Origin: an uncultured Vicinamibacterales bacterium
GTDB lineage: Bacteria > Acidobacteriota > Vicinamibacteria > Vicinamibacterales > UBA8438
Length of the DNA stretch: 64,000 nt
Direction: 5' to 3'
NCBI GenBank assembly: GCA_958295905.1
Contig: OY282382.1
Span: forward strand, 2,504,001-2,568,000
Every line of letters starts with the position of its first letter. The first letter of the stretch is position 1. The notes beneath the pieces are model-generated. The model searched no databases, was not told the origin of the DNA, and worked only from the letters and a program-made list of their open reading frames with translations. A program made the position numbers and the translations under genes. Shown piece after piece: positions 7,987-57,240 of the stretch.

Positions 7987-8529
7987 GTGCTTCGGTCCCA
8001 CCGCGGCGGTTTCCCGCGGGTCGCGTCCTCGGCGTTCGTGGACGACAGCGCCCAAGTGATCGGCGACGTCGAGATCGGCGCCGACAGCAGCGTCTGGATG
8101 AACGCGGTGCTGCGCGGGGACGTGAACCGGATCCGCATCGGCGACCGCACCAACATCCAGGACGCCAGCGTGCTCCACGGGATGCGCGGGACGCATGCGA
8201 CCCTGCTCGGGGACGAGGTGACGGTGGGGCACGGGGCGATTCTCCACGGGTGCGTCGTCGAGCACCGGTGCCTGATCGGGATGGGGGCGATCGTGCTGAA
8301 CGGCGCGGTCGTCGGCGCCGGCTCGATCGTCGCGGCCGGCGCCCTCGTGGCCGAGGGGACGGCCATCCCGCCGGGGTCGCTGGTCATGGGCAGTCCGGGC
8401 CGGGTGCGCCGGGCGACGACGGACGACGAGGCGGCGTCGATCCGGCGCTACGCCGACCGCTACGTCGCCTACAAGCGCGATTTCCAGATGTCCTCGCACG
8501 GACCCGGGGAGAAGCGGGGCGCGCCATGA
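7987..8529 (+). CDS. Gamma-carbonic anhydrase family protein
   Basis: A 180-residue left-handed beta-helix (hexapeptide repeat) protein of the gamma-carbonic anhydrase/YrdA type. Visible repeats include VIGDVEIG, ASVLHGMRG and GCVVEHRCLIGMG; the metal-binding histidines are in HGMRGTH and VGHGAILHGC, and the conserved NIQDASVLH segment is present. Family members bind zinc or iron; some hydrate CO2, others have no shown activity. The start is GTG 7987, just downstream of a TATAAT box, giving an apparently leaderless mRNA. hisS follows after 40 bases in the same direction and may be cotranscribed. Confidence 0.88.
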   Translation: MLRSHRGGFPRVASSAFVDDSAQVIGDVEIGADSSVWMNAVLRGDVNRIRIGDRTNIQDASVLHGMRGTHATLLGDEVTVGHGAILHGCVVEHRCLIGMGAIVLNGAVVGAGSIVAAGALVAEGTAIPPGSLVMGSPGRVRRATTDDEAASIRRYADRYVAYKRDFQMSSHGPGEKRGAP

Positions 8530-8569
8530 CGACGCGGCCTGCGGCTGAACGAAGGGACCCCCCCTCACG

Positions 8570-9823
8570 GTGATTTCCGGCATTCGCGGCACGCGGGACA
8601 TCCTGCCCGACGAGGTGGGGCGGTGGCGGCGCGTCGAGCGCGCGGCGGTGGAGGTGTGCGCGCGCTACGGTTACGTCGAGGTGCGGACCCCGGTCATCGA
8701 GCGCGAGGAGCTGTTCGCGAAGGGGACCGGCGCGTCGACGGACATCGTGCAGAAGGAGATGTACGCGTTCACCGACAAGGGCGGCGAGCGCATCACCTTG
8801 CGCCCCGAGGCGACCCCCAGCCTCGTCCGCGCCTTCGTAGAACATGGTCTGGAGCAGGCCCTGCCGTTCGCCAAGCTGTACAGCCTGGGACCGATGTTCC
8901 GCTACGAACGCCCGCAGAAGGGCCGCTACCGGCAGTTCCACCAACTCGACGTCGAGGTGTTCGGCATCGCCGATCCGGCCATCGACGGGGAAGTGATCGA
9001 GATGGCCTCGGCCTTCGTGGACGAGCTCGGTCTCGAGGGCGCCGAGCTCGTCATCAACTCCGTCGGGTGCCACGCCTGCCGGCCCGCGTTCGGTGCGGCG
9101 CTGCTGGCCGCCCTCGGCGGGCGGGTGTCCGACCTGTGCGCCGACTGCCGCCGCCGGGCGGAGACGAACCCGTTGCGGATCTTCGACTGCAAGGCGCCGG
9201 CCGACCAGCCGATCATCGACGCGCTGCCGCATTCGGAAGACTATCTGTGCGACGCCTGCCGGGATCACTTCGTTGGCGTGCGGCGTCATCTGGACGCCTA
9301 CGGGCTGTCGTACCGGGTGTCGCACCGGCTGGTGCGCGGCCTCGACTACTACACGCGCACCACCTTCGAGATTCTCGGGGCCGGGCTCGGGGCGCAGAAC
9401 GCCCTGCTCGGGGGCGGGCGTTACGACGGCCTCGTGAAGCAGCTCGGCGGCCCCGAGCGGCCGGGCATCGGCTTCGCGGCGGGGCTCGAGCGGCTGGTGC
9501 TCGCGCTGCCCGAAGGGGCGGGCGGCGCCGAGCCGGTGGATGCCTTCGTGGTCGCCCTCGGCGACGCGGCGTGGGCGTCGGCCCGGGTGCTCGCCCGCGA
9601 CCTGCGCCGGGCCGGCCTGCGGGTGCTGATCGACTACGGGGGGCGTTCGTCGAAGTCGCAGATGAAGCGGGCCAACCGCAGCGGGGCCCGGCACATGCTG
9701 ATTCTCGGCGGGGACGAGCTGGCGGCGGGCGAGGTGACGGTCAAGGAGATGGACTCGAGCCGGCAGCGGCGGGTGGCCCGCGCGGCGGTCGCGTCGGCCC
9801 TCGCCCCGGGGAGCGCGCCGTGA
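8570..9823 (+). CDS. hisS: Histidine--tRNA ligase
   Basis: A 417-residue class II synthetase charging tRNA-His. It begins at GTG 8570 with the typical ISGIRGTRDILPDE lead. Motif 2 (MFRYERPQKGRYRQFHQLDVEVFG), the His-specific loop around LVRGLDYYTRTTFEI and motif 3 (GGGRYDGLV, GIGFAAGLERL) are all visible, followed by the anticodon-binding domain from about residue 325. The length is normal. It lies 40 bases after the carbonic anhydrase gene; a family A repeat follows its stop. Confidence 0.96.
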   Translation: MISGIRGTRDILPDEVGRWRRVERAAVEVCARYGYVEVRTPVIEREELFAKGTGASTDIVQKEMYAFTDKGGERITLRPEATPSLVRAFVEHGLEQALPFAKLYSLGPMFRYERPQKGRYRQFHQLDVEVFGIADPAIDGEVIEMASAFVDELGLEGAELVINSVGCHACRPAFGAALLAALGGRVSDLCADCRRRAETNPLRIFDCKAPADQPIIDALPHSEDYLCDACRDHFVGVRRHLDAYGLSYRVSHRLVRGLDYYTRTTFEILGAGLGAQNALLGGGRYDGLVKQLGGPERPGIGFAAGLERLVLALPEGAGGAEPVDAFVVALGDAAWASARVLARDLRRAGLRVLIDYGGRSSKSQMKRANRSGARHMLILGGDELAAGEVTVKEMDSSRQRRVARAAVASALAPGSAP

Positions 9824-9845
9824 AGCCGGGGGCTTGGCCGCAGCC

Positions 9846-9936
9846 AGGAGTCTGCGCCGTAGCGCGGCGCGGGTTCCCGGCGGGTTGGTTGGGGCGGCGA
9901 TCGGAGGCCGCAGCGCGACCTTGCGACGATTTCCGG
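9846..9936 (+). repeat. Dispersed element A, copy 1
   Basis: Head AGGAGTCTGCGCCGTAG followed by a GGGTTGGTTGG-type middle and a tail ending CGACGATTTCCGG. It sits 22 bases after the hisS stop. The 20-base segment around its upstream flank (TGAAGCCGGGGGCTTGGCC) recurs at 9983-10002, and another tail fragment occurs near 10059-10072, so 9824-10122 is a patchwork of family A pieces without a gene. Confidence 0.7.
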
Positions 9937-10122
9937 GTTGGCCGCCGTCATCGCAGCGTCACGGCCGCCCCGGAGAGCGCGTCGTGAAGCCGGGGGCTTG
10001 GCCACGGGCTCTCCGGCCGCCGGCGCCGCCGGGGTGATGACCGGCGCGGCCGTCCGGTGCGACGATTTCCGAAATGCAGGGCGCGGCGCGGTACGCCGGC
10101 GCCGGCGACAGGGTGTGAACCA

Positions 10123-48375: not shown

Positions 48376-49650
48376 TCAGGCCGTCTCCGCCAGATACGGA
48401 ATCGTCTGCGGACCTTCGGGGAGGACGCAGACGCGGGCGTCCGGTCCCGACCGCGAGAGCGCTTCGACGGTGGCGGCGCCGACGTCGTCGATCGGGGTGA
48501 GATGCGCGGCCCGCACTTGGTCGGCCGAGAGTCCGTCGGTCTTGAGCAGCACGTCGGCGCGCTGCTGAATCTGGGCCTGCACCTGCACCTCCCACTGGTC
48601 GTGGCGGTTGTGGCCGGGGGCGTTGATCATCTCCAGCAGCCCGTCGGGGCTGTCGCGCCGGGTGAGGATGTCCAGATACTCCCCGTGGTCGGGGTAGCCG
48701 TCGGCGCAGGCCGACGCGCAGACGATGACGCCGTCCGGCTTCACCACCTGCGCCGCCGCCGACATGCCCTTCACCGTCTGGTAGAGGTTCTGGTCGAGGG
48801 GGTAGCCGCTGTTGGTGGTGACGACGACGTCGAACGGCCGGGCGAACGCCTGCATCGCGTTCCGCTTGACCACCGCCCGCACCGCCCGGTGCACCGCGAA
48901 CAGCTCGCCGGCCGCGACGTGGGTGATCCGGCGGTCACGGTTGATGGCCACGTCGACGCTGAAGTCAACCCCGGAACGGGCCGCGATGGCCCGGATGCCG
49001 TCGTGGATGGGGTTGCCCTCGATGACTCCCCAGCGCGCCTGCGGGCTGCCGATCATCTCGGCGTCGTGCAGCCGCATGATCGTGCGGAAGCCGGCCAGCC
49101 CCGGCGCGACCATCTTCGGCCCGCCGCTGAAGCCGGCGAAGAAGTGCGGCTCGACGAACCCGGTGGTGATGCGGACGTCCGCCTCCACCCACGTCCGGTT
49201 CAGCCACACCGGGACGCCGCCGTCGACCTCGCCGAGGGAGACGAGCTGCGCGTCGTCGAACGCGTCGTGGACGACGATGCGGTTGTGGTCGACGATGTCC
49301 GCGCCGAGCATCTCCACCAGCTCGCCCCGGGTCGTCGCCCGGTGGGTACCGCTCGCGATCATGATCGCGATGCGGTCCGCGGGCACGTGCGACAGGGCTT
49401 CGAGCACCACCGGCAGCACCGTGGCGCTCGGCATCGGCCGGGTCACGTCGCAGACGGAGATGGCCACGGTCTGGTCGCGGCGCACCCGTTCGCGCAAGGG
49501 GGCGCTGCCCAAGGGGTGATCGAGCGCCCGCCGCACGGCGCCCGCCTGGTCCGGCAGTCCGTCCAGCCAAGTGGGCTCGATGACCGTCGTGCGGTCGTCG
49601 GGAAACTCGACCGGCAGCCCGGTGCGGCCGTATGCGAGATTGACGATCAT
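48376..49650 (-). CDS. LarA-like nickel-pincer racemase family protein
   Basis: A 424-residue member of the nickel-dependent lactate racemase (LarA/DUF2088) family. The key residues are in place: His in IASGTHRATT, His and the cofactor-tethering Lys in EPHFFAGFSGGPKMVAPG, and a further His in MRLHDAEM. The N-terminal LarA_N domain contains SVCDVTRPMPSATVLP. Homologues racemise or epimerise various 2-hydroxyacids and sugar acids, so the substrate is open. It would need LarB/C/E from elsewhere. ATG 49650 has a GGGAGGGAGG ribosome site. It lies downstream of the UGSC selenoprotein gene on the same strand, with element A between them. Confidence 0.88.
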   Translation of the reverse strand: MIVNLAYGRTGLPVEFPDDRTTVIEPTWLDGLPDQAGAVRRALDHPLGSAPLRERVRRDQTVAISVCDVTRPMPSATVLPVVLEALSHVPADRIAIMIASGTHRATTRGELVEMLGADIVDHNRIVVHDAFDDAQLVSLGEVDGGVPVWLNRTWVEADVRITTGFVEPHFFAGFSGGPKMVAPGLAGFRTIMRLHDAEMIGSPQARWGVIEGNPIHDGIRAIAARSGVDFSVDVAINRDRRITHVAAGELFAVHRAVRAVVKRNAMQAFARPFDVVVTTNSGYPLDQNLYQTVKGMSAAAQVVKPDGVIVCASACADGYPDHGEYLDILTRRDSPDGLLEMINAPGHNRHDQWEVQVQAQIQQRADVLLKTDGLSADQVRAAHLTPIDDVGAATVEALSRSGPDARVCVLPEGPQTIPYLAETA

Positions 49651-49734
49651 GACAAGCCTCCCTCCCAGGGGTCTGTGCCGCAGGAAATTATGACCACCAT
49701 ATGTTGAGCAAGCTCAGGCGACCGACCGCTATAT

Positions 49735-49874
49735 ATTGTGCCAGATCGGACCTAAAACGATTCTACGGCGCAGACTCCCGGCCCGGAAATCGCCGCGGGG
49801 CGGCGCTCCACCAATCCTGCCGGGCGTCGGCGCCTCTTTTCACGAGGCGGCGCCGTTCTGCGGCGCGGACTTCC
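49735..49874 (-). repeat. Dispersed element A, copy 8 (composite)
   Basis: Minus-orientated composite: first part (49735-49777) matches, as reverse complement, the 45-base variant body and head of the double copy at 39037; second part (49778-49874) is a normal A body with the CGCCTC / GAGGCG hairpin and head. The last 12 codons of the UGSC gene are encoded by its head, and the TGA stop lies in its hairpin loop. Confidence 0.7.
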
Positions 49875-50424
49875 GGCGCGCGGTCAGCACGTGTTCGAGC
49901 TGCGCCGCGGCCTCCTTCGCCCGATCCTCGATCTCGTCCTCCGAGAGCGTGCTCAGGGGGTGGGTGATGACGATCGGCTCGAGGTCGTCGGCGCCGAGGG
50001 CGGCGCGTTGCGTCTCGGCTTCCTCAAGAAAGGCGGCGGTCACGATGACCGCGGTGGGGATTCCCCGCTGCTCCAGCCGGGCCGTGTCGTGCACACTGCA
50101 CGACGTGCACGACCCTCAATCTCCGATCGCGGTGACGACGACGTCGTTCTCGGCCGCGATCCGGTCGAGCAGGGCGTCGGTCGCCTCGCGCGAGAAGCTG
50201 TCTTTGACGTAGCGGTGGACTTCCGCCGGCTCGCAGGCGCCGGCGAAGGCGGCCGCGGTGTGCCGCAGCAGCCGCGACGCGTTCCACTTCGAGTTGTCCA
50301 GCACCCCCAGCCGCACGCCGCGGAGCGTCTCGGGCCGCGGGGCGAGCCGGATCTGCGCGGCGGTGACGGCGCCGCGCGGGTCGAACACGATCTGCCCGGA
50401 GGGCAGGGTCTGCTGACTGCTCAT
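49840..50424 (-). CDS. UGSC family selenoprotein
   Basis: One 194-residue frame interrupted by a single TGA at 50116-50118 (codon 103). Translated through, it reads VVVTAIGD-Sec-GSCTSCSVHDTARLEQ, giving the exact U-G-S-C motif (Sec103, Cys106, plus Cys109) that defines the UGSC family of selenoproteins. Sequence on both sides is family-like (APRPETLRGVRLGVLDNSKWNA before; GIPTAVIVTAAFLEEAE after). A hairpin with a three-base GUG loop follows (50086-50104). The biochemical role of the family is unknown; the Sec/Cys pair suggests redox chemistry. ATG 50424 follows a GGAG site and starts 22 bases after the 367-aa gene. Without Sec decoding it would be called two short ORFs. Confidence 0.88.
50086..50104 (-). 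promoter_or_regulatory. Bacterial SECIS element of the UGSC gene
   Basis: Perfect eight-pair stem GTCGTGCA / TGCACGAC with a three-base GTG loop starting 19 bases after the TGA. Because GTCGTGCA is directly repeated just upstream, an alternative nine-pair stem with a ten-base loop (stem 50113-50105 with 50094-50086) can also form, but it lies nearer the TGA than usual. Confidence 0.8.
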
Positions 50425-50446
50425 GGGTCTGGTCTCCACGGTCTTT

Positions 50447-51550
50447 CTACAGCTCGCACGTCCCGTCCACGCACGGCGCCGGGCCGGCCGGGGCGCGTCC
50501 GTCGACGGCGCGCAGGACCGGCGACGTCATGTGTCCCCATCCGGGGAGGAAGGCCGAGAACCGGCCCGCCTCGCCGCCGGCGACGAACAGGTGGATGTCC
50601 TCCGGGGCCGGCACGATGGGGATGCGGGCTCCCGGTCTGCGCCGGTACCACTTCGGCAGGTTGCGGTTGTAGATCCGGCCGTACCGGCCGCCGAAGCTGA
50701 CGTCGTCCCAGGTGTTGGCGGTGTGCGACCACAGGTAGCGCCGCACGTCGCTCCGTTTCCAACCCTTCGCCGCGATGGTGGCGGCGTGCTCGGGACCGAT
50801 GACGACGGCGCACGATCCACTGCTGACCGCGTTGTTGTGGGCGATGGTGCTCATGGCCGAGACGATGCTGTCGAGCACGCCCTCCGGGTCGTGCGCCACG
50901 TGGTTGGTCACGCTGTGCGGGCCCTCGGCGGCGATGCAGAAGACGGCGCTGTCCTCGGGGCGGTAGCCCTGCTCGACATGATAGGGCGCCCACGGGCTCG
51001 CCTCCTCGTTCTCGGCGATGCAGAACGTGTACTTGCCGGGGTGGCCCAGGGTGCTCTTGTCGAGGTCTCCCGGCCGCGCGCCGCCGACGTTGAGCAGAAT
51101 CAGCCGGATGGCGCGGCCGATCGTCGCATTCGCCCGGTTGCCGGAGCCGAAGACGTTGGCGCCGGCGTTCATCCCGATCTCGGTGCGGACGGGGCCGTTG
51201 ACGACCAGGAGCGGGGCCGCCATGTGGGTCGTGGCCTGCACCCCGTGCAGGTTGAAGTGGGGGCTGCACAGCGCGAGCATCGCGGTGCGGACCAGCGGCG
51301 CATAGGCGGGCCGGCAACCGGCGAGCGCCAGGTTGACGGCCAGCACCTCGCGGGTCAGGTTGCCCCACCGAGGGGGGACCCGGGTCTCGACCCGCTCCGG
51401 TTCTCCCCCGAGCGCGTCGACCATCGCCCCCACCGACTGCGGGGTCGGCGGCACCACCGGGAGGCCGTCCGTCCAGCCCTGCCGGAAGTACCATTCGACG
51501 AGGTCGACGGGTTCGCGGTCCGGCCGCCGCGCGATCTGATCGGTGCTCAT
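50447..51550 (-). CDS. Uncharacterised protein linked to the UGSC selenoprotein
   Basis: A 367-residue cytosolic protein I cannot assign to a named enzyme. It starts with a conserved-looking block (VEWYFRQGWTDGLPVVPPTP) and has segments rich in conserved small residues (LHGVQATTHMAAPLLVVNGP, GMNAGANVFGSGNRANATI, DKSTLGHPGKYTFCIAENEE). The C-terminus ends PCVDGTCEL, a Cys pair that could be a substrate or partner for a Sec/Cys redox protein. The UGSC gene begins 22 bases downstream, implying cotranscription. The start ATG 51550 fits; longer openings run into the glycosyltransferase gene. Confidence 0.8.
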   Translation of the reverse strand: MSTDQIARRPDREPVDLVEWYFRQGWTDGLPVVPPTPQSVGAMVDALGGEPERVETRVPPRWGNLTREVLAVNLALAGCRPAYAPLVRTAMLALCSPHFNLHGVQATTHMAAPLLVVNGPVRTEIGMNAGANVFGSGNRANATIGRAIRLILLNVGGARPGDLDKSTLGHPGKYTFCIAENEEASPWAPYHVEQGYRPEDSAVFCIAAEGPHSVTNHVAHDPEGVLDSIVSAMSTIAHNNAVSSGSCAVVIGPEHAATIAAKGWKRSDVRRYLWSHTANTWDDVSFGGRYGRIYNRNLPKWYRRRPGARIPIVPAPEDIHLFVAGGEAGRFSAFLPGWGHMTSPVLRAVDGRAPAGPAPCVDGTCEL

Positions 51551-52302: not shown

Positions 52303-53973
52303 TTATGGGTCGAGCCCGAAGGTGTACAACGTGTTGCCGATGGTCATCGTGACGAACTGCCGCCCGCCGACGGCGTAGCTCATCGGCGAGGCGTGCACGG
52401 GGCCCCCCAGGGAGATCTGCCACAGGGGGGCCCCGCTCTCGGCGTCGAGCGCGTAGAAGTACCCGTCGACGCCGGCGCTGAACACGAGGTCGCCGGCCGT
52501 CGCCAGCACCCCCGCACGGCTCCGGGGGGTCATCGGGAATTCCCAGCGGATGTCGCCGCTGGTCGGGTCGATGGCGCGGATCGCGCTGAGGTAGTGGTCG
52601 ATCGGCAACGGGGTCTCGGTGCCCCCGCCCGTATAGGTGTCGCCTTCGACGTACTCCTGGTCACGGATGAAGAACCGCGCTTCGCCGTCGAACGCGTTGA
52701 CGTACAGCAGCCCGGTGCGCGGGCTGTAGGCCGGCGACCACCAGTTGGTGGCGCCGCCCGCGATCGGGGCGACGAGGGTGCCGGTCCGGCTGGGAAACGT
52801 GTTCGGCCGCCGGATGGGCCGGCCGTTCGGGTCCAGCCCTTCCGCCCAGGTCTGGTGGGCGAACGCCTTCCCGAGCAGGAACTCGCCGGTCCCGCGGTCG
52901 AGCGTGTAGTAGAACCCGTTGCGGTTGGCCCACAGCATCGCCTTGCGCGCCTCGCCGTCGAGCTCGATGTCGGCCAGGACCGGGATCTGGATCGCGTCCC
53001 AGTCGTGGACGTCGTGCGGGGTGAACTGGAAGTACCAGGACATCTCTCCGGTGTCGCCGTCGAGGGCGAGGACCGAGTCGGAGTAGAGGTTGTCGCCGCG
53101 TCGGACGTCGCCGTTCCAGTCCGGGCCGGGGTTGCCGGTGCCCCAGTACACCAAGTTCAGCTCGGGGTCGTAGGACCCGGTGATCCAGGTCGGCGACCCG
53201 CCGGTCCGCCAGGAATCGCCGGCCCACGTGAGGTTGTCGGGGTGGTCGGGTCCGGGAATGGTGTAGGTCCGCCACTCGCGCTCCCCGGTGCGGGCGTCGT
53301 AGGCGTCCAGGAACCCGCGGATGCCGAACTCGCCCCCGGCGATGCCCGTCACGATCCGGTCCTTGACGACGAGGGGGGCGGCGGTCTTGCTGTACCCGCT
53401 CCGGTGGTCGGCGACCTCCCGGTTCCACACGAGGTCGCCCGTCCGGGCGTCGATGGCGACGAGATGGGCGTCGAGGGTGCTCATGAAGAGCAGGTCGTCA
53501 AGAATCGCGACCCCGCGGTTGTTGCGGCCGCAGCAGATCCGCAGATCGTCCGGCAGGGGATGGTCGTAGCGCCAGAACGGCCTTCCCGTGACGGCGTCCA
53601 CCGCGACCACGTTGCTCGGCGACTCGGTGATGAACATCACCCCGTCCACGACGAGCGGCGTCGTCTCCGCGCGGTCGAGCTGCGGGATGTGGTGGGCCCA
53701 CTTGAGCTCGAGGCCGCCGACGTTGGTGCGGTCGATCCGGTCGAGCCGGCTGAACCGCTGGCTGTCGAGGGTGCCGTTGTACATCAGCCAGTTGTGCGGT
53801 TCGTCGGCCGCGTTCACCAGCCGCTCCCAGGTCACCGGGGAGAACAGCGGGGCGCCTTCGGCCGGCGCCGGGGGCGTCTGGGCCTGGAGCCGGGCCGCGG
53901 CCGGCCCGGCCGCGAGCGTCACCGCGGCGAGGGCCATCCATCGGCGGGCGGACGAGGTGCGGGGCAGCGTCAT
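52303..53973 (-). CDS. Secreted PQQ-dependent dehydrogenase
   Basis: A 556-residue quinoprotein beta-propeller with an N-terminal signal (MALAAVTLAAGPAAARL). It contains repeated propeller strands (NVVAVDAVTGRPFWRYDHP), the vicinal Cys pair in RICCGRNN expected to cover PQQ, YWGTGNPGPDWNG with the metal Asn, and FTPHDVHDWDAIQ with the catalytic Asp and a second Asp two residues on. That D-x-D pattern is the signature of lanthanide- rather than calcium-using alcohol dehydrogenases. The ATG at 53973 overlaps the di-heme cytochrome stop (ATGA), identifying its electron acceptor. Confidence 0.9.
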   Translation of the reverse strand: MTLPRTSSARRWMALAAVTLAAGPAAARLQAQTPPAPAEGAPLFSPVTWERLVNAADEPHNWLMYNGTLDSQRFSRLDRIDRTNVGGLELKWAHHIPQLDRAETTPLVVDGVMFITESPSNVVAVDAVTGRPFWRYDHPLPDDLRICCGRNNRGVAILDDLLFMSTLDAHLVAIDARTGDLVWNREVADHRSGYSKTAAPLVVKDRIVTGIAGGEFGIRGFLDAYDARTGEREWRTYTIPGPDHPDNLTWAGDSWRTGGSPTWITGSYDPELNLVYWGTGNPGPDWNGDVRRGDNLYSDSVLALDGDTGEMSWYFQFTPHDVHDWDAIQIPVLADIELDGEARKAMLWANRNGFYYTLDRGTGEFLLGKAFAHQTWAEGLDPNGRPIRRPNTFPSRTGTLVAPIAGGATNWWSPAYSPRTGLLYVNAFDGEARFFIRDQEYVEGDTYTGGGTETPLPIDHYLSAIRAIDPTSGDIRWEFPMTPRSRAGVLATAGDLVFSAGVDGYFYALDAESGAPLWQISLGGPVHASPMSYAVGGRQFVTMTIGNTLYTFGLDP

Positions 53974-54779
53974 GGGTCCCTCCGCAGGGAGTAGAGATAC
54001 GCCGCGAGGTCGGTCCGTTCCTGCGCGGTCAGCGTCTCGGCGTAGCCGGGCATGGTGGACGTCTCGGTCCGCTCGTAGGACCAATCGCCGTACTTCGAGA
54101 ACGCTCGGAGGTTCTCGTCCGCATCCATGATGCGGAACGTGAAGGTGTCCTCGCTCATGCGCAGGCCCTCGACGGTCTCGCCGCCGGGGCCGGTCGCGGT
54201 GATCGTCCACCAGCGGGGGAGCACCTCGGCGTCGGGGTCGACGAGGTCGGTCTCGAGCGCTTCGGGGGTGCGCCGGTCTCCCACGAACGACAGGTCCGGC
54301 CCGAGGCGGCCGCCGTCGCCGTCTACCCGGTGGCAGCGCGCGCAGCCTCCCTTGCCGGCGAAGAGCGCCTGCCCGGCGGCCGGCGACGCGCCGGGGTCGA
54401 TGCCGCCGCCGGCCGGGGCGAGCGTGCGCAGAAACGTGACGAGCTGCCAGACCGTCTGCTCGGACGCGTTTTCCCCGAGCCCGATCATCGCGGTGCCGTC
54501 GACGCCCTCCCGGATGACCCGGAACAGGCCGGCGTCACCCTCGGCGCGGCGGAACTGCCCCGTGGTCAGGTCCGGCCCGCCCGCCTCCGGGTTCCCCGTG
54601 GCGTTGATGCCGTGGCACGTCGCGCACCGGGACTGATAGCTGCGACCGCCCATGCGCACGTCGATCCGGCTGGTGAACGGGTTCTCCGGCTCCTGGGCCC
54701 GCGGCGCCGCCGCCCAGGGCCCGGCGGCGGCCATCAGCAGCGCGACGCCGCGCCAAGGCGTGATGCTCATCCTGCGCAT
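53970..54779 (-). CDS. Exported di-heme cytochrome c
   Basis: A 269-residue periplasmic cytochrome with a signal peptide (GVALLMAAAGPWAAAPRAQ) and two heme motifs: CATCH at residues 52-56 and CARCH near 145. The second half matches the Planctomycete/PQQ-dehydrogenase associated cytochrome with STMPGYAETLTAQERTDLAAYL providing the axial Met. ATG 54779 has a strong AGGAGG site. Translationally coupled to the PQQ dehydrogenase and presumably takes its electrons. Confidence 0.9.
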   Translation of the reverse strand: MRRMSITPWRGVALLMAAAGPWAAAPRAQEPENPFTSRIDVRMGGRSYQSRCATCHGINATGNPEAGGPDLTTGQFRRAEGDAGLFRVIREGVDGTAMIGLGENASEQTVWQLVTFLRTLAPAGGGIDPGASPAAGQALFAGKGGCARCHRVDGDGGRLGPDLSFVGDRRTPEALETDLVDPDAEVLPRWWTITATGPGGETVEGLRMSEDTFTFRIMDADENLRAFSKYGDWSYERTETSTMPGYAETLTAQERTDLAAYLYSLRRDP

Positions 54780-55118
54780 GGGTGATCCTCCTGGGAGCGT
54801 GGTGTCAAGCCTGCCGCCGTCGACCGGCCGCCGCATCCCGCGTGGACGGCGTTGCTCGTCTCGGAGCGGCGTTGCTCTCCTCGAAGCCTGCTCCGCGGTT
54901 GCCTGTACTCGACTCGCGCGTGTCGAGCGCCTTCCGTTCGCCCGCGGTCCCTCCTCGAAGTCTGCTCCGCGGTTGCCTGTACTCGACAGGCGCCGCCGCG
55001 GCGGCGCCTTCGGCCCGCCGGCGCCCCCGCCCGGTTTCGGTGCGGCGCGGGCGTCACCGCGGGCTCCGATGCCGCCCCGCCTGCCGGCGCGTCGGAGAAC
55101 GCCGATCCGGGACCGGCG
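54780..55118. other. Intergenic region with direct repeat and palindrome
   Basis: A 36-base direct repeat with one mismatch (54876-54911 and 54953-54988; core TGCTCCGCGGTTGCCTGTAC), immediately followed by a perfect 22-base GC palindrome at 54988-55009. The palindrome may terminate or bind a dimeric regulator. No gene is seen. Confidence 0.6.
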
Positions 55119-57101
55119 TCACCGCGGTTCCGGCAGGGCCAGCGCGATCAGCTCGCTCCCCATGTCGTCCCAGCCGACGGTCGCGATGATGAACTGGCGG
55201 CCATCGATCATATAGGTCATCGGGGCCCCGGTGGTGCCGCCCGGCAGCTCCTTCTCCCAGACCACCGCGCCGGTGGCCTTGTCGTAGGCCCGGAACATCT
55301 TGCCCCCGGGTCCGTTCCACCATTGGGGGAGGGCCGAGACGCCGGTGTTGCCGCCTTCGCCCAGGAAGACCAGCGACTTCGTCACGAGCACCGACGCGCG
55401 CCCCCCCTGGCCCAGCTTCGGCAGGTCGAGGCCGCGCAGCGCCGGGTGGTCGCGCGGGCCCCCGCCGTTGGCGACCTGCCAGGCGATGTCCCCGGCGTTC
55501 ATGTCAATCGCGGTCAGCCGCCCGTAGGGGGGCTTGAAGAGCGGCAGGCCCTGCGGTCCCGGCAGCGGCGTGTACTTCTCCCGCACCAGCCGCATGTCCG
55601 CCCGCGGGTGCTCCGACGGCACGAGGGCGACGACGTTCTGGCTGTAGGCGGACGGTACGTAGAGGACGCCGGTCTCGGGGTCGACCCCGGCCCCGCTCCA
55701 ACTCGCCCCGCCGGCGGTGCCGGGGCTGAAGATCGTGCCCTTCTTGCCGCCCGGCCGCGGGTCGAGCAGGATCGGCGCGGTGAACATCGGCCCCCACACG
55801 TACTGGTCCAGTAGTTCCAGCGCTTCCGCCCGCAGCTCGGGCGTGAAGTCGATCAGGTCGTCCTCGCGCACCCCCTGCAGCTCGAACGGCGGGGGCCGGG
55901 TGGGGAACGGCTGGGTCGGCGCCAGCCGCTCGCCGGGGACGTCCGAGGCGGGGACCGGCCGTTCCTCGATCGGCCACACCGGCTCGCCGGTGACCCGGTC
56001 GAAGACGTAGGTGAACGCCTGCTTGCTCGGCTGCGCGACCGCCTTGATCTCCCGCCCGTCGACGGTGATGTCCAGCAGCACCGCCGACGACGCGAAGTCG
56101 TAGTCCCAGACCCCGTGGTGGATCGCCTGGAAGTGCCAGAGCCGCCCGCCGGTCCGCGAGTCGACCGCGACGAGGCTCTCCGCGAACAGGTTGTCGCCCG
56201 GCCGGTGACCCCCGTAGTAGTCGTTGGTGGGGGTCGACAGCGGGAGATAGACGATGCCCAGCTCCTCGTCGCCGGTCGGGTGCGCCCACATGTTGGTGTT
56301 GCCGCTGTACTCCCACGACGCGCGGTCGTCGACGGGGTCGGCCCCCCACGTCTCCACCCCGAACTCGTTCCCGCGGGGAATCGTGTGGAACGTCCACACG
56401 TGCTCGCCCGTCCGCACGTCGTAGCCGCGGACGTCGCCGCGCGGCGATTCCTTGTTGGCGACCCGCTGGGCGGTGGTGACGTCCTCGACGAAGGAGCCGA
56501 TGACGATGACGTCGTTGACGACGATCGGGGCCGAGTTCCAGTAGAAGTCGGGGAAGGGGCGCAGCAGCCCCTCCCGCAGGTCGACCTCGCCGGCCTCGCC
56601 GAACGCCGGATCGCGCGCGCCGGTGCGGGCGTCGAGCGACACCAGTTTCGGACCCAGGGTCGCGAGCACGCGGCGTTCCCCGCCGTCGGTCCACCAGGCG
56701 ACGCCCCGCGTCTGCCGCACCCGCACGCCGTCGCTCGGCCCGGTGTTCCAAACCACCTCGCCGGTGGTCGGCTCGAGGGCCGCGACGGTCCCCAGCCCGG
56801 TGCTGAAGTACAGCAGGCCGCCCGCCATGAGGGGTGTCGTCTGCGAGCCGACGGGGCCGCGGGTCGTTTCGCCGTTCCGGATCGCATCGGGAATCACCGG
56901 CTGCCGCCACGCGATCTCGAGGTCCGCCACCGTTGCCGCGTTGATCTGGTCGAGGGGCAGGTACTTGGTGCCGGCTTGGTCGGCCGCGTACGCCGGCCAC
57001 TCCACGGTCTGACCCGCCGCGGCGGGCGCCGCCGCCCCCAGCGCGACGGTTACCGCCAGGATCGCCCCGGTCCGCCCCCGCCGATTCGCCCGCTCCCGCA
57101 T
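55119..57101 (-). CDS. Secreted PQQ-dependent dehydrogenase, glucose/quinate-type
   Basis: A 660-residue quinoprotein with signal peptide (AILAVTVALGAAAPAAAGQ) and the GDH-like opening EWPAYAADQAGTKYLPLDQI. Propeller motifs (TTPLMAGGLLYFSTGLGTV, GVLYVPSAYSQNVVAL) and the active-site region QAIHHGVWDYDFASSAV are visible; again Asp is followed two residues later by Asp (WDYD). It lacks the vicinal Cys pair of the alcohol dehydrogenases, so its substrate is likely a sugar or polyol. ATG 57101 follows an AGGAGG site. It is monocistronic. Confidence 0.88.
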   Translation of the reverse strand: MRERANRRGRTGAILAVTVALGAAAPAAAGQTVEWPAYAADQAGTKYLPLDQINAATVADLEIAWRQPVIPDAIRNGETTRGPVGSQTTPLMAGGLLYFSTGLGTVAALEPTTGEVVWNTGPSDGVRVRQTRGVAWWTDGGERRVLATLGPKLVSLDARTGARDPAFGEAGEVDLREGLLRPFPDFYWNSAPIVVNDVIVIGSFVEDVTTAQRVANKESPRGDVRGYDVRTGEHVWTFHTIPRGNEFGVETWGADPVDDRASWEYSGNTNMWAHPTGDEELGIVYLPLSTPTNDYYGGHRPGDNLFAESLVAVDSRTGGRLWHFQAIHHGVWDYDFASSAVLLDITVDGREIKAVAQPSKQAFTYVFDRVTGEPVWPIEERPVPASDVPGERLAPTQPFPTRPPPFELQGVREDDLIDFTPELRAEALELLDQYVWGPMFTAPILLDPRPGGKKGTIFSPGTAGGASWSGAGVDPETGVLYVPSAYSQNVVALVPSEHPRADMRLVREKYTPLPGPQGLPLFKPPYGRLTAIDMNAGDIAWQVANGGGPRDHPALRGLDLPKLGQGGRASVLVTKSLVFLGEGGNTGVSALPQWWNGPGGKMFRAYDKATGAVVWEKELPGGTTGAPMTYMIDGRQFIIATVGWDDMGSELIALALPEPR

Positions 57102-57240
57102 CGCTGACCTCCTGGAATCGGGCCAGTCTACCGCACTTGCCGGCGCGGGCGGCCCGCGCGGCGGAGGCCCGGCGACCTCCGCCAGGCGGCCGCGAAACGC
57201 CCGGGACGCCAGGGTCCGCCCCGGAAGGGCCATTTCGGCA

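Follow-up and report, generated by a model that had tools for sequence, protein, structure and literature searches.

A UGSC selenoprotein, its regular partner gene and a family-specific lactate racemase homolog in Vicinamibacterales: a candidate GrdB-like selenoenzyme

Introduction

In the selenoproteins GrdB and PrdB of glycine and D-proline reductase, selenocysteine (Sec) attacks the carbon next to the carboxylate, the amine is expelled, and a thiol then splits the resulting selenoether (PMC10298544). A GrdB-type pair has also been implicated by expression data in cleavage of the C-F bond of fluoroacetate (PMC10838667). The UGSC family (PF24696/NF041046) comprises selenoproteins for which the 2008 survey assumes a thioredoxin-like fold and gives no function, partner system, kinship to GrdB or link to LarA (PMC2398784). 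Here, we analyzed a 64,000-nucleotide stretch (the window) of the genome of an uncultured Vicinamibacterales bacterium of the phylum Acidobacteriota (assembly GCA_958295905.1, contig OY282382.1, positions 2,504,001 to 2,568,000), in which a UGSC selenoprotein gene lies between an uncharacterized gene encoding a 367-aa protein, hereafter P2, and the gene of a LarA-type nickel-pincer 2-hydroxy acid racemase.

The locus shares with D-proline reductase (PrdA/PrdB and the proline racemase PrdF) a small Sec protein, a larger partner and a racemase in the cluster; however, P2 has no detectable similarity to PrdA, and the racemase is of the nickel-pincer hydroxy acid type. Thioredoxin is held not to be the donor for PrdB (PMC10298544), unlike the donor proposed below for UGSC. 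With GrdB, GrdF and GrdH (PF07355), the locus has in common an alignable Sec site (UG[ST]C-T..........E..GIP), thioredoxin coupling and a Sec protein that needs a partner, but UGSC shares only the Sec-bearing end, P2 is not GrdE-like, and no GrdA/GrdC/GrdD-type genes were seen beside the P2-UGSC pair. The farACEB fluoroacetate reductase operon of Synergistota (PMC10838667) is similar in that a GrdB-type selenoprotein is proposed to act on a small non-amino acid, and differs in having GrdB/GrdE homologs proper, a role in anaerobic respiration and no racemase. Known LarA proteins sit in a lar operon, whereas that of the window sits in a selenoprotein module. The reading that we tentatively favor, as plausible if not quite probable, is that P2 and UGSC make up a GrdB-like selenoenzyme, driven by thioredoxin, for the reductive cleavage of a bond adjacent to a carboxylate, and that LarA interconverts the two enantiomers of a short 2-hydroxy acid belonging to that pathway.

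Results

The genomic partnership of P2 and UGSC is close to certain. Genome contigs were scanned with the P2 alignment, and the best 80 P2 loci were used, although more exist. With tblastn, a UGSC gene was located within 1.6 kb of P2 in 60 of these 80 loci, and a hidden Markov model search with a 4-kb limit located one in 61; the exceptions are mostly Poribacteria with a shorter, solitary P2. In the reverse direction, P2 was found inside the 1.5-kb flanks of 22 of the 27 UGSC loci of the phylum; the remaining five are additional copies, and their genomes have a UGSC-P2 pair at another site. All plasmids with UGSC (13/13) also carried P2. The two genes occur together across bacteria and haloarchaea, in either order (P2-UGSC or UGSC-P2), and fusions were found as well. 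Smithella encodes UGSC (with Sec) and P2 in a single 532-aa frame, and plasmids of Sporomusa and Vibrio carry UGSC-P2 fusions with DMGTS in place of DUGSC, which may represent a non-redox branch of the family. Genomes of the Acidobacteriota genus g44 have ten to over twenty UGSC matches each, and those read are UGSC-P2 fusions, mostly with an in-frame TGA. The genome of the window has a second UGSC-P2 pair near 4.56 Mb, whose P2 carries a fused AhpC/TSA domain. A sequence-only reading of the window had placed the 367-aa gene, with its CVDGTC end, 22 bases before UGSC and LarA after it, and had proposed surveying UGSC neighborhoods for recurrence of the 367-aa family and of LarA and for fused versions; it would have given way had these families not co-occurred beyond this genome. 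The layout and the C-terminus (CVDGTCEL) agree with the coordinates (Table 1), and both the recurrence of the 367-aa family and the fusions are borne out by the loci described above; LarA recurs within the taxonomic family of the window (see below). A fusion of UGSC with a conserved "Unknown_1" domain was already noted in 2008, in the Global Ocean Sampling survey (PMC2398784); Unknown_1 may be P2, in which case the partnership was partly foreshadowed there.

Several further variants of these genes were observed. The Poribacteria P2 is ~315 aa long, with no UGSC within 4 kb and a conserved neighborhood (12 loci). Besides a UGSC-P2 pair, genomes of genus g71 have a further UGSC gene, which contains TGA and stands alone, with no P2 in the ~10 kb around it. 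The plasmid fusions of Sporomusa (8317-10041) and Vibrio (8377-10062) both adjoin aconitase X and DUF126 genes. Individual g44 genomes have between 10 and at least 21 UGSC matches, with 46 candidates in one genome (G113), and another genome beside the g44 set (G172) has five. The g44 fusions vary in motif (UGSC, USSC, USVC, USQC and UDGC), and several have N-terminal stretches resembling signal peptides. The second UGSC gene of the window's genome, near 4564.5 kb, has its 3' half present twice, as 250-nt copies that are 96% identical and lie 301 nt apart; the duplication, which adjoins a 62-bp tandem repeat of the gene's end, leaves a partial UGSC copy without Sec.

The UGSC protein of the window belongs to the described family by both curated cut-offs, scoring 192.6 bits against PF24696 (cut-off 25) and 149.8 bits against NF041046 (cut-off 125), and its GDUGSCTSC stretch (residues 101-109) contains the UGSC (or CGSC) motif of the family. 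Its reading frame needs a single in-frame TGA (50118-50116) decoded as Sec103. In the 60 UGSC loci adjoining P2, this column holds TGA in 50 and a Cys codon in 10; natural Cys forms are found, for instance, in Achromobacter and Rhodococcus. The RNA 3' of the UGA folds into a hairpin (z of -2.7 for the best stretch tried). A Rfam scan of the window at gathering score gave no match to a selenocysteine insertion sequence (SECIS); the SECIS-like hairpin was established through covariation instead. In 36 homologs, pairing at its six apical positions holds in 96.3% of cells, and 17 double-sided pair changes were counted against a shuffled mean of 4.6 (0 of 500 shuffles reached 17); sliding the pairing along the alignment gave at most 3. 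Most clearly, C-G is exchanged for G-C in 12 sequences, a swap that ties the choice between Cys/Trp codons to a downstream codon. In addition, the genome encodes tRNA-Sec (63 bits; gathering score, 47) and a SelB that scores over its cut-off. As far as sequence can tell, decoding of the TGA of the UGSC gene as selenocysteine is well supported.

Profile comparisons identify UGSC as a distant homolog of the Sec-bearing end of GrdB, not as a member of GrdB. The GrdB model was matched by 12 of 54 UGSC proteins (best, 4.7e-6), and besides it, only GrdF and the general selenoprotein B model were matched by more than one of the 54. Consistently, hhalign of UGSC against GRDB-type proteins returned an E value of 5.3e-6 and a probability of 85.8, with the Sec residues in one column; the GRDB sequences were taken from P2-carrying genomes, with translation continued across the TGA of each. 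GRDB-type genes are present in 15 of 18 P2-carrying genomes, and those read continue through an in-frame TGA; these Sec proteins have STUGT or PVUP.C motifs, and many have a short N-terminal part. The AlphaFold2 (AF2) model of UGSC (predicted local distance difference test score [pLDDT], 93.6) is an alpha/beta domain with Sec directly before helix 104-119, and its nearest chains, weakly matched, are flavodoxin/Rossmann-like (template modeling score [TM] about 0.45; Z up to 10.7). No thioredoxin-fold chain is among the fold matches listed, which proves nothing on a thioredoxin fold, and neither a GrdB nor a PrdB structure is among them; a search of PDB sequences yielded chance-level matches only. 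As modeled, the UGSC fold is flavodoxin/Rossmann-like and not evidently the thioredoxin-like fold of the earlier literature.

P2 was rejected as a known family, since no match was found in Pfam, in NCBIfam (63 members compared) or in PDB sequences, and as a relative of the GRDB proteins (hhalign probability below 1). Its AF2 model (pLDDT 90.1) gave weak and uninformative fold matches, to fumarate hydratase by Foldseek (3.9e-4 at TM 0.26) and to chorismate mutase in the VIA fold search (Z 5.5 over 90 residues); the absent match does not imply a new fold.

Several observations couple the pair to thioredoxin. Thioredoxin reductase genes adjoin P2-UGSC in Roseovarius, Variovorax, Arthrobacter, Achromobacter, Candidimonas and Rhodococcus, accompanied by a thioredoxin gene in Arthrobacter and Rhodococcus, and a TrxB-like gene occurs in the fusion-rich Acidobacteriota genus too. 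The AhpC/TSA domain of the second P2 of the window's genome is N-terminal, of thioredoxin fold, and contains CATC; this P2 has no Cys tail. The P2 of the window is among the 15 of 63 family members with a C-terminal C-x4-C-x2 tail. Class I ribonucleotide reductase (NrdA) likewise has C-x4-C two residues from the C-terminus (C754/C759 in the Escherichia coli enzyme), and the likeness is limited to the tail, with no homology detected over the rest of P2. In the E. coli enzyme, C754/C759 are shuttle cysteines reduced by thioredoxin (PMC11143221). By analogy, C360/C365 of P2 form a probable thioredoxin-reducible shuttle tail, and the fused AhpC/TSA domain and the Cys tail look like alternative devices for the same job.

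LarA scored 522.3 bits against NF033504 (cut-off 460) and is the sole PF09861 match, and only LarA, of the genome, which also encodes LarC and LarE, both over their cut-offs. The statement of the sequence-only reading that LarA has all cofactor residues holds: R71, H103, H169, K179 and H195 correspond to R75/H108/H174/K184/H200 of LarA1 of Lactiplantibacillus plantarum, which completes the set for binding of the nickel-pincer nucleotide (NPN) and for catalysis. Likewise, the specificity residues F170, F171, W353 and E354 reproduce the lactate racemase (LAR) signature F, F, W, E/Q. Residues F, F, W and E are characteristic of lactate racemases, with lactate, glycerate and 2-hydroxybutyrate as substrates (PMC11770544). 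The protein resembles known lactate racemases (LarA1; the broad-substrate 9eia) in all three respects, namely, the NF033504 cut-off, the NPN/catalytic residues and the F,F,W,E set. A malate or hydrophobic 2-hydroxy acid racemase was rejected, since those LarAH models stayed below cut-off and the residues are of the LAR group.

The linkage of LarA to the pair was assessed in 28 genomes of the taxonomic family of the window, from about ten genera. The window-type UGSC copy and a LarA orthologue (72-100% identical) are present in the same 24 genomes and both absent from the other four (Fisher p = 5e-5, which overstates independence, the genomes being related). In 23 of the 24, the two genes share contig and strand, separated by 3 bp to 5.9 kb. 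The usual family cluster is AhpC/TSA~P2 - UGSC - SSF symporter - FadB/FadJ-like protein - P2 - UGSC - LarA; the window's genome has it in two pieces, at 2.55 and 4.56 Mb, with P2-UGSC-LarA still together. Elsewhere in the order, LarA and UGSC show no association. A universal partnership of LarA with UGSC was rejected, as only the window's lineage has LarA among the best 80 P2 loci. LarA is an addition specific to this family and no general companion of UGSC-P2; since P2-UGSC loci of other lineages lack it, it does not determine which reaction the pair performs. The P2-UGSC-LarA module proposed in the sequence-only reading is conserved in the family, with LarA in all 24 genomes that carry this UGSC copy. 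Four family genomes have a gene for a BCCT (betaine/carnitine/choline type) transporter close to LarA and on the other strand; with 4 loci only, it was not used as the uptake system.

Discussion

The neighbors of the pair include uptake systems (TTT/TRAP transporters among them), coenzyme A (CoA)-transferases and beta-oxidation genes. Judging from the Sec-site homology, the presence of a regular partner, the coupling to thioredoxin and these catabolic neighbors, P2-UGSC most likely performs the same kind of reductive cleavage as its GrdB relatives on another small acid. We propose that P2 and UGSC form one thiol-dependent selenoenzyme whose mode of action would resemble that of glycine/sarcosine/betaine reductase protein B and of D-proline reductase. 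P2 would bind a small substituted carboxylic acid, and the selenolate of Sec103 would attack the carbon next to the carboxylate, releasing the substituent and leaving a selenoether. The latter may be split by a thiol, either Cys106 of UGSC, the C360/C365 tail of P2 or both, to give the acid in reduced form together with a selenenylsulfide or disulfide. Recharging of the enzyme would fall to thioredoxin and thioredoxin reductase or, in the sister pair, to the fused thioredoxin-fold domain. LarA might interconvert the L and D forms of a short 2-hydroxy acid entering or leaving this step, much as proline racemase feeds D-proline reductase.

Several points weigh against this proposal. The UGSC of the window scored 18.6 bits against the GrdB model TIGR01917 (cut-off 602.2), which places it outside that family, and the alignment of UGSC with GrdB covers only ~85 residues. 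The 63 P2 proteins gave no match to the GrdE or PrdA models, and since P2 is not detectably related to either, the pyruvoyl (carbonyl) activation of the GrdE/PrdA enzymes has no counterpart here. LarA near P2 is confined, in the best 80 P2 loci, to the window's own lineage. GrdB and PrdB are fermentation enzymes, whereas many carriers of the pair are probably aerobes. Finally, hydroxyl in its free form is a poor leaving group; either its activation (e.g., as a CoA ester, which would fit the CoA-transferase neighbors) or a different leaving group is therefore likely. The sequence-only reading had suggested an undescribed pathway acting on a 2-hydroxy acid or a thioester-like substrate. The F,F,W,E signature of LarA speaks for the 2-hydroxy acid, and the pathway itself is still a proposal; the thioester-like substrate is supported only indirectly, by the CoA-transferase and FadB-type neighbors.

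The best-surviving alternative, which we consider unlikely, is that UGSC-P2 is a general thiol oxidoreductase, i.e., a detoxifying peroxidase or disulfide reductase whose Sec reacts with peroxides, disulfides or sulfoxides rather than with a carbon substrate, LarA belonging to an unrelated function next door. Enzymes of this kind typically have a UxxC motif and thioredoxin/AhpC-type partners, and the literature places UGSC among thioredoxin-like redox proteins (PMC2398784). However, the Sec site is homologous to that of GrdB, the AF2 fold is flavodoxin/Rossmann-like with no thioredoxin-fold chain among the matches listed, and the pair is surrounded by uptake, CoA-transferase and beta-oxidation genes. 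The many fusion paralogs in one genus also suggest substrate diversification.

It is rather unlikely that the pair instead cleaves a leaving group not derived from a hydroxyl (amine, quaternary amine, halide or thioether) next to the carboxylate, with LarA acting only down- or upstream. Relatives of GrdB cleave C-N bonds (PMC10298544), C-F cleavage is implicated from expression data (PMC10838667), and the BCCT transporter is found near LarA in 4 family loci; nevertheless, those loci are just four, with the transporter on the opposite strand, and halogen- or sulfur-specific genes are not recurrent in the family cluster. Improbable, too, is that LarA stands beside the pair merely through gene order inherited in one family and acts in plain lactate metabolism: although LarA occurs without UGSC in about 24 other genomes of the order, where the two show no association, and the UGSC-LarA gap ranges from 3 bp to 5.9 kb, same-strand linkage persists in 23/24 genomes over about ten genera despite inserted genes, the UGSC copy and LarA are jointly missing from 4 family genomes, and P2-UGSC-LarA stayed intact in the window's genome when the wider cluster broke up.

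Returning to the GrdB-like selenoenzyme, the UGSC family and LarA are already known, and we found nothing in the open-licence literature on P2, the P2-UGSC system, the kinship with GrdB or a LarA-selenoprotein module. A broader claim, which we regard as doubtful, is that UGSC-P2 represents a new, widespread class of thioredoxin-driven selenoenzymes that use a partner without kinship to GrdE/PrdA for the reductive removal of a group adjacent to a carboxylate, in carriers many of which are probably aerobic, and with Cys forms in haloarchaea; LarA would be its stereochemical feeder in the family, making up an undescribed nickel- and selenium-dependent 2-hydroxy acid route. UGSC gains a partner gene, a chemical precedent (GrdB), a candidate electron donor (thioredoxin) and, in one family, a racemase pointing to short 2-hydroxy acids, which opens an old "function unknown" protein to a small set of assays; if the proposed reading is right, GrdB-type carbon-selenium chemistry would reach beyond amino-acid fermenters to environmental bacteria.

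Coordinates and neighboring genes

The genes follow one another on the minus strand as P2, a 22-base gap, UGSC, a 189-base gap and LarA (Table 1).

Table 1. Features of the P2-UGSC-LarA locus (positions in the window)
Feature	Position	Strand	Remarks
P2	50447..51550	minus	367 aa, C-terminus CVDGTCEL; D28, C79, E180 and others invariant in 63 relatives
P2 C-terminal tail, codons 360-367 (CVDGTCEL)	50450..50473	minus	C-x4-C ending two residues before the C-terminus
UGSC selenoprotein	49840..50424	minus	194 aa with predicted Sec103; distant homolog of the Sec-bearing end of GrdB by sequence comparison
TGA, predicted Sec103 codon	50116..50118	minus	TGA/Cys column in homologs; tRNA-Sec and SelB in the genome
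SECIS-like hairpin, apical part	50087..50103	minus	Loop AGUGU with invariant GU; fold z and covariation
LarA, nickel-pincer 2-hydroxy acid racemase, lactate type	48376..49650	minus	424 aa; NF033504 score

On the upstream side of P2, two genes for pyrroloquinoline quinone (PQQ)-type quinoprotein dehydrogenases and a cytochrome c gene were recognized by eye (window positions 52303-57233). One such quinoprotein family is recurrent in 15 loci of the window's family.

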